Source: Discostella pseudostelligera
Lineage: Eukaryota > Bacillariophyta > Thalassiosirophyceae > Thalassiosirales > Thalassiosiraceae
Assembly (NCBI GenBank): GCA_036940085.1
Contig: JALLBK010000122.1
Location: forward strand, 1-21,813
DNA: 21,813 nt
Reading direction: 5' to 3'
The notes under the pieces were generated by a model. That model was not told where the DNA came from, did not search any database, and saw nothing but the letters and a program-made list of their open reading frames with translations. The first letter of the stretch is position 1. Every line of letters starts with the position of its first letter. This document shows positions 10,199 through 14,940 of this stretch, one piece after another. Both the position numbers and the translations under genes were made by a program.

Positions 10199-13100
10199 AT
10201 GCTCACCAGCAAGAAGACCCAATCGTCCTTCGGTCCCGATGGACGTCGCGTCTCTTCCGGCTTATCATCGTTGTCCATGCCCCCGCCGATGAGATTGAAA
10301 TGTGTCGGTCGGGCCGGGAGTGGCTTTTCGAGCAACCCGTCATCGATGTCGGGCACCTGCGATGGCGGCAGCGGCGGTGCGGCTGGTGGCAAAATGCATT
10401 CTACCAACAAACTCTTCCAACCAGGATCCAAGCTCATTATATCTCGTGCACCCGTCATGCCTGGTCTATCCGTCTCCGGTGGCTCATTGGGACTACAACG
10501 TAAATTTCAACGACCAATGACCAAGCGTCGTTCTTACGATAAGACTGCCGAATTAGCATTGAAATCCTCGACATTGGGGCAGAAACGTAGATTTGATGGA
10601 ATGGCGAAATTATTAGCTCGGGCGGGAAAGGGCTTGTCGTACCAATTGCCAGGAGGTGGAGCGAAGAATAAGGATGGAGAGTGTAGTGGTACCAGTGATG
10701 AGAGTGACAGTGACGAGGAGAAGGAGGCGGATAGGCCTTTTGAACCGCTGCAATTGTGGAAGAGTCCGCATGAGGGGGGAGAGGCCAGGGGGTTGCCACC
10801 ACGATTGTGAGTGTTTCGTTAATGTATTAGTGATGGCACAGATGGAAACCCCCATTGGCGCTGGAATGACATGTTGGTGTGTTTGAATTACTCACAATTA
10901 TTCTGTATGCAAATCATTTTGTCTTTGCCACACCCTCCACAGGATGACAATGACCCGACCAGATGAATATGGTGTAGGAGAGACTGTAACAGAATTGGTT
11001 CCAGGTAAGCCTTCCCATTCCATGACAATGAGTGAAAATTTGATAGCGTCATTTCACTCATGTCTGTCTGCATTTGTGTGTCATCAAAGCTCCCATTGAG
11101 GCATACGCCAAGGAATCCGCATTTGTACCACCGGTACTTGCCAAATGGTTGCGGCCACATCAACGGGAGGGTGTTCAATTCATGTACGAGTGTGTTATGG
11201 GGTTGAAGGACTTTAATGGTAGTGGGTGCATTCTAGCCGATGATATGGGTCTCGGAAAGGTACGGTATAAGTGATCATTGTCGTTGGAGTACATGCTCTA
11301 GTGGATTTGCACCTAATTCAAGAACATTCTCACCGGTTGCTCGATATTTTCATGCAGACATTGCAATCCGTGACACTCATTTGGACATTGCTCCAAACTG
11401 GTATCACAGCAAACAAGGAACGTACCGCAAAGCGCGTCATTGTCGTGTGTCCGTGCTCCTTGGTGAAGAATTGGGACAATGAATTTGTCAAGTGGTTAGG
11501 ACCAGACGTCGCTAAAACATTGGCCTTGGCCGAGTCGGATCGAAAGACTGTCGAGAAGAACATTGACTGCTTCGTCAAAACCAAAATGTTCCAAATCCTC
11601 ATTGCCAGTTACGAAACCATCCGCACTCACGTGGGACGTCTCAACAAATACAAGGATTGTTGTGATTTACTCGTCTGCGATGAAGCCCATCGACTCAAGA
11701 ATCGTGAGAATCAAACTTCCATGGCACTGAATTCCATCCCCGTCAAACGTCGGGTATTGTTGACAGGTACACCTATGCAGAATGATCTGGAGGAGTTCTT
11801 TGCCATGGTGGACTTTACCAACCCTGGCGTGCTTGGTACACAGGAAGATTTCCGTAAGAAGACATTGTTCCCTATTCTTCGTGGACGTGAGCCGGATGCA
11901 ACGGAGAAACAGAAGCAACGCATGTTGGATATTCAGCAGGAGATGTCTGCCACCGTCAACAACTTCATCTTGCGGCGTGTGAATACGTTGAATGCGGAGC
12001 ATCTGCCACCGAAGTTGGTGCAAGTGGTTTGCTGCAACTTGACGGAAATTCAACAGAATATGTATGCACACCTTTGCAATAGCAAAGATACGCAACACGT
12101 GCTCGAGGGGAAGCAAGTCAATTGCTTGGGTTCCATCCAAATGCTCATGAAGGTGAGAGATGTCATTGTTCGCCTAGCTGGACTACCATTTTTCCATTGC
12201 TCGCGTAGCTGGACTGCCATCCACCATATTTCATTCCAATCATTACTCTCCGTTTCCAACCAACTCTAACTCCCATTCTTGCTCGACTATTACTGCATCA
12301 TCTTTAGTTGTGCAACCACCCTAGCCTTGTTGTCGACGAAGATTCTTCCAACGCTCTAGATCGTACAGGTGGCCGGGCGAAAAAGAAAATCTGCTATGCA
12401 GAAGAAGAGAAAAGCTCTGCCGCTCCAGGAGCCGACGTAAGTTTAGATTCAATTCCAGGTCTATCATCTTGTAGAACTGAATGCAGATCAACTAACCGAA
12501 ATATTGTCTCTTCACAGGGTATTGCTCGATACATGCCGCCAGAAGCCATGGGTGGAGGTAGAAATGCTCCAGTCATGCCTGAGCTATCTGGAAAGATGTT
12601 TGTCCTTTATCGGCTAATGCGAGAGATGAGAAAGCCAGGAAACGGAAACGATGTGCGTATCAATCCATCAATTTGCTTTGAATTGTGCATCGCTCTTCCT
12701 AACCTTACATTGTTTTTGTCACATCATTATTTCACCAATCATAGAAAATCGTAATTGTGTCAAACTACACTCAAACTTTAGACCTTATCGGGCGTATGTG
12801 CCGTGAGAACAGTTGGGGCTTCTGCCGTTTAGACGGAAGTATTTCAATGAAGAAGCGACAAAAAATGGTAATGCTGCAGCGTATTCATTTTTTGCATGCG
12901 ACCAACTTGATAGATGCTCGAACTTATACTCACTTTCCTTTTATTTTCGACATGAACCTATTCAGTGTGATGAATTCAATGATCCATCAAGTAGCTTGGT
13001 GGCCTTTCTTTTGTCGAGCAAGGCTGGTGGATGGTGAGTGAACAATCCATTCAGCCACAATTTTCGAATTTTTTGCTCATTCTAATGCATCCACTCGATA

Positions 13101-14940
13101 TCGACGTTGATCTATTCAGTGGGCTCAACTTGATTGGAGGAAATAGGCTTGTACTTTACGATCCAGATTGGAACCCTGGTTAGCTTTTGAATGGATCATG
13201 ATGTGTGAATGTTTATCCTTTGATTGAACTCACGATCTAATACTAATGCTATTTTTACCATGGAACCCAGCCGTGGACAAACAGGCAGCAGCCCGTTGCT
13301 GGCGAGATGGTCAAAAGAAACGATGCTTCACTTACAGATTCTTGGTAAGTGATAAGCTGCATCATGGACTGATTGTATCGATCTCTTTCTATGCGGCTCT
13401 TTGACTTCCGTTGTCCATTGCAGTCTACTGGGACGGTTGAAGAAAAGATCTTCCAGCGCCAACTCTCAAAGGAAGGTCTACAATCGGTCGTTGACGATTC
13501 AGAGCAGGTGAATGCGCTCAGTACCAAAGACCTAAAGAATCTGTTCAAACTACGTCAAGGAACTCCAAGTGATACGCACGACAAATTGAAATGCGAGAGG
13601 TGTCAAATCATTGTCGACGATGCTGAGGCGGAGGCCGTCAAGGTTTTACCAAAGAAGCTTGCTGCATGTCGTGAGCTCTTGGAAAAGCTGATGAAGTTAG
13701 AGGACTCAGCTAGTTTTCTCACTCCATTGCAACCCGAAGCGCATGGTGTATCGGTGGAGGATTATCAGAAGCAAGTAAAGCAGCCGATGGACTTTGGGAC
13801 GGTGCTCAACAAACTCGATAAGAAAAATAATAGCACTGGATACGGCAGCCCAGCAGCTTTTACAAAAGATGTGAATCGAGTACTTTCCAACGTGTTGAAA
13901 GTCTGGGAGCCTGGACAAGAAATCGCAAATGCAGCGTCAAGGCTTCAGATCTGGTAAGTCTGCTCCTATTCGACAGCTTTTGGCCGCACATCATTGTTCC
14001 TCACTCCGATGATTTCTTTGTCATGTGTCGAAGGTGGATCCAGCAGTGGACTGAGTTGGTACCGATTCTAATGTCAATGAAGTCGGATTGTGACAGCTGC
14101 GAAAAAGAAAATGAATCCCCAACCGCTGACGGCGACAATGAGCCACCGCCCAGCTATCTAAACGAGCGTGGTGAAGACTATCAAGAGCAGATAGGGATGC
14201 CGGACGAACAGAATATGCGAAGCTGGAGTCATCACCACAGCACTGACACGGTTGACGATCCAATTTTTCGAGCTGCCATGCGTGGATACGATGCTGTTTC
14301 GTTTGTGTTTGGGCTGGAGGTTACTTGGAGTCTCATCCAGCATCGGCAGCAGGAAGAGGAGGAACGTCAGGCTTTGCTGGAGCTCGAGACTATGAATGAA
14401 ATGAACGCGGCGTCCAATGAGACTGATGATGCTATCATGATGGATGATGACGAGGGCGAAGATGACCAGGAAGACCGTGCTCAGGAAGATGATGAATTTC
14501 CTGAGAAGGGTTTTGACAACAATGACTCTGAATCTGCCGAGGATCAGATCGTCGAGGATTCTACCAATGTGGCGGAGCATGAATCATCGTCGCTTGCCAT
14601 CGACACTGAAGCAGCAGCGGCCATGTTGGAAGGTAAAGGAGCCAACGATGAACAAGTTGACGACACTGAGTCCCAAGATATTGAAGACAGAACAGAGGAC
14701 GAAGAATCGACGAAACATGTTCCGAATACTTCCACGGCAACGACTGCTGACCCCGTAACAAAATCTTCAAAATGGGAATGCGAGGTGAGTTTAATCTGGT
14801 ATGTGTTGTTAGGTGCAGTACTCTACTTCTCTGACGTGACCATTTCGCATCTCCTCCTATAGGCATGCACATTTGTGAACGACAAGTCGAAGAGAAAATG
14901 TCAGATGTGTCAAACGAAGAAGGCGAAGTCCAGAAAGTAG
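10199..14940 (+). CDS. RAD54: RAD54 recombination translocase with inserted bromodomain-like module and C-terminal RanBP2 zinc finger
   Basis: Thirteen exons: 10199-10806, 10943-11004, 11090-11259, 11358-12152, 12308-12436, 12518-12652, 12745-12867, 12966-13033, 13120-13178, 13271-13344, 13424-13953, 14034-14784, 14863-14940; 1193 aa, phases consistent, all GT-AG. SNF2 motor: LRPHQREG (244-251), Walker A DDMGLGKT (274-281), DEAH (388-391), LLTGTPMQND, SNYTQTLDL, RLDGSISMKKR, SSKAGGCGLNLIGGNRLV, DPDWNPA, RCWRDGQKK, then the RAD54-specific TVEEKIFQRQ and SDTHDKLKCERC. RAD54 remodels DNA and Rad51 filaments during homologous recombination. A bromodomain-like module (about 818-925) comes next, then a segment matching the RAD54 terminus (W982...AAMRGYDAVSFVF), an acidic stretch (about 1047-1145) and a RanBP2 zinc finger (1165-1184). 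In-frame ATGs at 10082 and 10106 would lengthen the N terminus; 10199 is preferred because E2F-like sites overlap the upstream region. Confidence 0.92.

Follow-up and report, generated by a model that had tools for sequence, protein, structure and literature searches.

A RAD54 gene of the diatom Discostella pseudostelligera with a probably non-canonical bromodomain inserted in its C-terminal region and a candidate ubiquitin-recruiting finger

The SWI/SNF ATPases form another subfamily of SNF2 proteins than RAD54; their bromodomain is terminal and keeps the asparagine (Asn) that anchors acetyl-lysine. Bromodomains without this residue are also described. According to the available excerpt of PMC5977933, 13 of the 61 human bromodomains lack Asn and have Tyr, Thr or Asp instead, not Trp, and one of the Asn-less domains, PHIP(2), nevertheless binds fragments in the acetyl-lysine site. 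For the NZF-type finger of ZRANB3, mutation of W625, Y632 or N634 abolishes and mutation of T631 reduces the interaction with ubiquitylated PCNA (PMC12841045, excerpt). Here, a RAD54 gene is described that lies in a stretch of 21,813 nucleotides (the window) of contig JALLBK010000122.1 from Discostella pseudostelligera and that combines the RAD54 motor with a bromodomain and a terminal RanBP2-type finger. In the open-licence PubMed Central text searched, neither a published description of a RAD54-bromodomain fusion nor a text joining RAD54, bromodomain and diatom was found; PMC3781322 covers RAD54, bromodomain, fusion and domain architecture and, in the part available, treats RAD54 and bromodomain separately. 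In diatoms, the expression results on sexually induced Thalassiosira pseudonana name rad54 as one of eight meiosis-related genes (PMC5501676, excerpt). For the diatoms covered by PMC4647503, DMC1 could not be identified; the accessible text of that paper mentions neither 'rad54' nor 'bromodomain'.

The gene fills positions 10199..14940 of the forward strand with 13 exons and 12 introns, every one of the latter GT-AG, and its spliced open frame encodes 1193 amino acids. The SNF2 domain scores 229.4 bits and Helicase_C 65.4 bits (Pfam). RAD54 is the closest solved structure for the two-lobe SNF2 motor, as compared by structure for orthologue P0014, and the tail of the window protein and its stramenopile relatives are RAD54 by sequence. 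Herein, the RAD54-type end consists of TGT-EEKI-QRQ, SDTHD and CxxC, followed by a WSHH-type motif and a terminal strand. End motifs and structure thus bear out the RAD54 identity given in the preliminary description. A search of the 963 contigs (23.0 Mb) of the own genome with exon 4 gives 597 bits for the gene itself and 84 bits for the SNF2 gene next in score, so that one clear RAD54 was detected. A protein search with residues 740-1000 gave 349 matches, the best 120 of which are considered; among these, P0001-P0081 carry a precomputed PF00439 at 48-84% identity and cover the whole query region except for P0076 (95%) and P0081 (89%). Stephanodiscus triporus is the best match (84% identity), and further named sources are Skeletonema menzelii, Thalassiosira sp., Cylindrotheca closterium, Nitzschia inconspicua, Epithemia clementina, Seminavis robusta and Leptocylindrus danicus. 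The label diatom-type denotes a match set that includes many rows without a source name. Residues were counted over 81 rows, i.e., the window protein and P0001-P0080, which were picked for 95-100% coverage of the query region and for PF00439, a selection that says nothing on the frequency of bromodomain loss. Four transcript-type entries (P0017, P0038, P0042 and P0063) have the same arrangement. Exon 11 runs without a break from the motor end TGTVEEKIFQRQ via SDTHDKLKCERC into the bromodomain. With an unbroken exon and many relatives built alike, the combination of RAD54, bromodomain and RanBP2-type finger first noticed in the window is confirmed. The parts of the gene are as follows:

10199-10806, 10943-11004, 11090-11259, 11358-12152, 12308-12436, 12518-12652, 12745-12867, + strand: exons 1-7 (GT-AG, open frame)
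12966-13033, 13120-13178, 13271-13344, 13424-13953, 14034-14784, 14863-14940, + strand: exons 8-13 (GT-AG, open frame)
11090..13344, + strand: RAD54/SNF2 motor, exons 3-10; SNF2-rel_dom residues 247-552, Helicase_C 630-730 (Pfam)
13424-13953, + strand: unbroken exon 11 with motor end, SDTHDKLKCERC and most of the bromodomain (gene model)
13592..13603, + strand: C798-x2-C801, putative first zinc half-site in RAD54; both Cys in 81/81 diatom-type rows
13667..13939, + strand: bromodomain, Pfam extent residues 823-913 (PF00439); helix C continues into exon 12
13904..13906, + strand: W902, where the acetyl-lysine-anchoring Asn would be (alignment of diatom-type rows)
14230..14235, + strand: H984-H985 (WSHH), putative second zinc half, followed by the RAD54 terminal strand and helix; each His in 80/81 rows
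14401..14760, + strand: acidic tether of low conservation, residues 1041-1160; 16.1% mean pairwise identity
14773..14910, + strand: NZF/RanBP2-type finger WECEACTFVNDKSKRKCQMC, residues 1165-1184, interrupted by an intron (14785-14862)

The bromodomain had at first been placed after the end of RAD54, which does not hold. Because RAD54 motifs resume past it, the bromodomain is, as judged from these motifs, inserted within the C-terminal region of RAD54 itself, with CxxC before and WSHH after it, and the idea of an append at the C terminus is dropped. In oomycete-type RAD54s, the WSHH-type motif comes directly after CxxC. The pair C798-x2-C801 is presumably zinc-binding. A CDSC right after the bromodomain was considered as the second half-site and dropped, being unconserved (P0001 has no CDSC). 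In zebrafish Rad54 (1z3i), 55 of 644 chain residues are left after the profile match ends just past CxxC.

The inserted domain scores 47.2 bits with PF00439 (E 2.2e-12, cut-off 21.7), and structure prediction gives an intact four-helix bundle of bromodomain type; both agree with its initial assignment. It lacks, however, the Asn in the BC loop by which acetyl-lysine readers are recognized: the position is W902 in the window protein, and across the 81 rows it is Trp in 77 and Asn in none. The own genome has 24 exon-level bromodomain matches, the one of RAD54 among them (52.6 bits), and eight of the 23 others were taken for comparison, all of which keep Asn. Because of this replacement, set against the Asn retained elsewhere in the genome, the RAD54 bromodomain is probably not an ordinary reader of acetyl-lysine. 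Thus, the early notion of a motor with its own binding modules stands in part, as far as the modules are concerned, and probably not in the implied reading of acetylated chromatin. The domain might still read acetylated histones through Trp or a neighboring residue and so hold RAD54 at breaks in acetylated chromatin. In favor of this, structure prediction shows the fold intact, Y855 (Y in 71/81) and I908 (I/L/V in 81/81), which we take to be the ZA-loop Tyr and the gatekeeper, remain, and PHIP(2) shows that the site can be occupied without Asn (PMC5977933, excerpt). However, Asn is missing from every row, Trp is never the substitute in the human Asn-less domains of the same excerpt, and so bulky a residue should fill the pocket, which makes acetylated-histone reading unlikely.

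Beyond diatoms, a profile of the diatom bromodomain gives 60-78 bits for P0082-P0084, P0133, P0148 and P0149, 38 for P0087, 30 for P0121, 25 for P0127 and at most 18 for the remaining non-diatom ochrophyte-type rows, and a negative score for each oomycete listed. Sixteen non-diatom rows are in the alignment for this profile, with P0088-P0090, P0098, P0126, P0128, P0139, P0147, P0150 and P0151 outside it. By PF00439, P0121, P0127, P0094, P0095, P0099 and P0149 are above the cut-off, and P0082, P0084, P0087, P0090, P0122, P0123, P0128, P0133 and P0148 are below (Aureococcus P0128 with 16.2 bits). P0121, from the pelagophyte Chrysophaeum taylorii (Pelagophyceae), scores 28.4 bits and P0149 26.2 bits, for which reason an origin in diatoms only is rejected. 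The search for the same architecture in other diatoms and stramenopiles, proposed in the preliminary description, is thereby answered by P0001-P0081 and the pelagophyte, with no bromodomain in oomycetes. At the same site, P0088, P0089, P0124 and P0126 have an insert that is either a decayed bromodomain or something else. A motor tree of 57 of 153 proteins, built by a quick method without bootstrap, rooted by choice on oomycetes and leaving out P0148, separates 46 ochrophyte-type rows from the oomycete-type ones (Shimodaira-Hasegawa-like approximate likelihood ratio test 100); P0146 groups with oomycetes, though not assigned there, and P0088, P0123 and P0150 are long-branched. On these comparisons, the simplest reading would be that the domain was inserted once, in an ancestor of ochrophytes, and decayed afterwards in part of their lines. 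The date of the insertion is unsure because most non-diatom rows bear no source name, so that brown algae, eustigmatophytes and chrysophytes could not be recognized among them.

The protein ends with a finger on a tether, which in the predicted structure of orthologue P0014 has a pLDDT (predicted local distance difference test) below 50. The window finger WECEACTFVNDKSKRKCQMC satisfies the pattern W-x-C-x2-C-x3-N-x6-C-x2-C; its W (offset 0), T (6), F (7), N (9) and M (18) are spaced like the five NZF residues of ZRANB3 (W, T, aromatic, N, M). T1171, F1172 and M1183 thereby satisfy T-(F/Y)-x10-M as in ZRANB3. A precomputed PF00641 is present in some orthologues, e.g., P0007, P0013 and P0025. 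The finger motif occurs in 67 of 82 diatom-type proteins, with T in 64 of the 67 and F (32), L (20), Y (13) or M (2) as the next residue. A related finger, W-C--CT(L/M)-N------C--C, closes 30 of 34 oomycete-type RAD54s (e.g., P0091, P0101 and P0131), 29 with T-L and one with T-M, and with S (17) or G (13) at the M position. These related fingers suggest that RAD54 acquired a RanBP2-type finger early in stramenopiles, probably before the bromodomain; the ubiquitin-type signature is fuller in some diatoms, the window protein included. Sequence matches in the PDB include the fingers of RanBP2/Nup358, Nup153, TRABID, TAB2/3, NPL4 and ZRANB2, the last of which binds RNA. Since they include ubiquitin-binding fingers and others, homology alone leaves the ligand undecided; an RNA-binding role is set lower here. 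In Epithemia clementina (P0052), two RanBP2/NZF-type finger motifs stand in tandem at the end of RAD54.

Taken together, we propose a RAD54 with an inserted non-canonical bromodomain and a ubiquitin-recruiting finger, a reading that as a whole is given a probability of roughly two in three. It starts from the gene structure, the predicted bromodomain fold, the insertion point, the conserved Trp and the NZF-type signature of the window finger. In an ancestor of ochrophyte algae, the bromodomain would have entered the RAD54 C-terminal region at a point between CxxC and WSHH, and diatoms would have retained it. The motor would be the usual Rad51-dependent translocase on double-stranded DNA, and CxxC and WSHH would make one zinc site from which the bromodomain is looped out. 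Having lost canonical acetyl-lysine reading, the latter would sit beside the second motor lobe and serve in interaction or regulation. Carried by a disordered acidic tether, the finger would take the motor to ubiquitin-marked damage sites, by analogy with the NZF-mediated recruitment of ZRANB3 to ubiquitylated PCNA. A single protein may thus combine a recombination motor with its own docking parts. A more specific version is tentative and clearly less probable: herein, a new kind of bromodomain-derived module in the zinc loop of the C-terminal lobe, its pocket closed by the near-invariant Trp, would bind a non-acetylated partner (e.g., a recombinase filament or a nucleosome surface) and gate the motor, and the ancestral finger would recruit to ubiquitin.

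Several observations weigh against the proposed reading. The window finger stays below the PF00641 cut-off (17.1 against 27 bits, residues 1164-1188), so that of the RanBP2 finger in the preliminary description the pattern stands and the profile match does not. No finger motif was found in 15 of the 82 diatom-type proteins; two of these, P0038 and P0042, are transcript-type entries with Trp as the last residue. The last hydrophobic position of the 67 fingers varies (M 22, A 21, I 10, V 10, L 3, T 1), only 17 have T, F/Y and M together, and M643A in ZRANB3 weakens affinity for oligomeric ubiquitin but retains binding of K63-polyubiquitin (PMC12841045, excerpt). In P0090, the Asn is replaced by Ser. 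The alignment of 1z3i to the P0014 model, for which only end points are given, ends at residue 763, beyond the bromodomain, and alignments of non-RAD54 chains, e.g., 9bz0_b and 3mwy, extend nearly as far (to about 755); for both reasons it counts as weak support for the insertion. The zinc ligands (CxxC, WSHH), moreover, are putative, as is any ligand of bromodomain or finger. P0085 (CCRYP_005385, 827 amino acids) and P0086 (808 amino acids) end near the bromodomain start, as would be expected if two genes or a retained segment had been joined by assembly or gene prediction; with exon 11 unbroken and the same arrangement from many sources, transcript-type entries among them, such an artefact is highly improbable. 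Finally, no Pfam bromodomain is reported in ochrophyte-type P0088, P0089, P0124, P0126, P0139, P0147 and P0151, so the fold is dispensable for some ochrophyte-type RAD54s. The insert might accordingly be a structural spacer, i.e., a ligand-free, domesticated bromodomain fold in a surface loop that slowly decays in some lineages. This is doubtful in view of the near-invariant stretches KDVNR-F-N and WW--W---VP and of the mean pairwise identities of 57 diatom-type rows: the motor reaches 78.5% (lobe 1) and 91.8% (lobe 2), the bromodomain 56.8% and the finger 50.9%, against 16.1% in the tether. P0081, P0086 and P0089 (no motif match) are left out of the tail alignment, which includes only P0094, P0099, P0101, P0116 and P0120 of P0091-P0120. 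By the mean identities, the bromodomain is under selection, weaker than that on the motor.

As RAD54 is highly conserved, specialists in recombination would not expect a folded domain kept in its C-terminal lobe throughout the diatoms, and the insertion is a concrete, testable difference in how diatoms and related algae may recombine. On the more specific version above, Trp-bromodomain and finger would together let a lineage where DMC1 was not found direct its recombination motor. A widespread natural bromodomain with Trp for the acetyl-lysine Asn also lends itself to studying the function of such domains.

Three EHD-type genes surround RAD54, two before it and one after it on the opposite strand. 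In the third, an undetermined base (translated as X) occurs near 16350, where the frame shifts, possibly at an assembly gap. The other features of the window are:

494-2512, + strand: Endomembrane protein 70 (EMP70) family, single open frame, 637 bits
3283-3720, + strand: small Cys-bearing protein; UPF0203 26.1 bits (cut-off 27) and COX17 20 (cut-off 24.9), both sub-threshold
5637-7481, + strand: EHD-type gene 1 (EH domain, DUF5600, Dynamin_N, EHD_N)
7716-9500, + strand: EHD-type gene 2 (EH domain, DUF5600, Dynamin_N, EHD_N)
15249 to about 16960, - strand: EHD-type gene 3 (EH domain, DUF5600; domain scan over 15249-16445)
17565-18749, - strand: Exocyst Sec3 C-terminal domain, 49 bits

Compared with RAD54/RAD54L (zebrafish 1z3i), the diatom protein adds a bromodomain of about 120 residues after CxxC and, further on, an NZF-type finger on an acidic tether. 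Oomycete RAD54 (Phytophthora, Aphanomyces and others) shares the motor and the WSHH/WGHH motif with the diatom but has no bromodomain, only 19-61 residues between CxxC and WSHH/WGHH (29 measured; over all 135 proteins, 15 unmeasured for want of a motif match), and S or G where the window finger has M. The SWI/SNF ATPases Snf2, Sth1 and BRM likewise combine an SNF2 motor and a bromodomain in a single chain. Atypical human bromodomains such as PHIP(2) keep the fold without Asn, as here, but with Thr, Tyr or Asp in place of the Trp of diatom RAD54 (PMC5977933, excerpt). ZRANB3 is also an SNF2-family translocase with an NZF, its W, T, aromatic, N and M at equal spacing; it differs in belonging to another subfamily and in having PIP, APIM and HNH parts, with no bromodomain listed in the available excerpt (PMC12841045).
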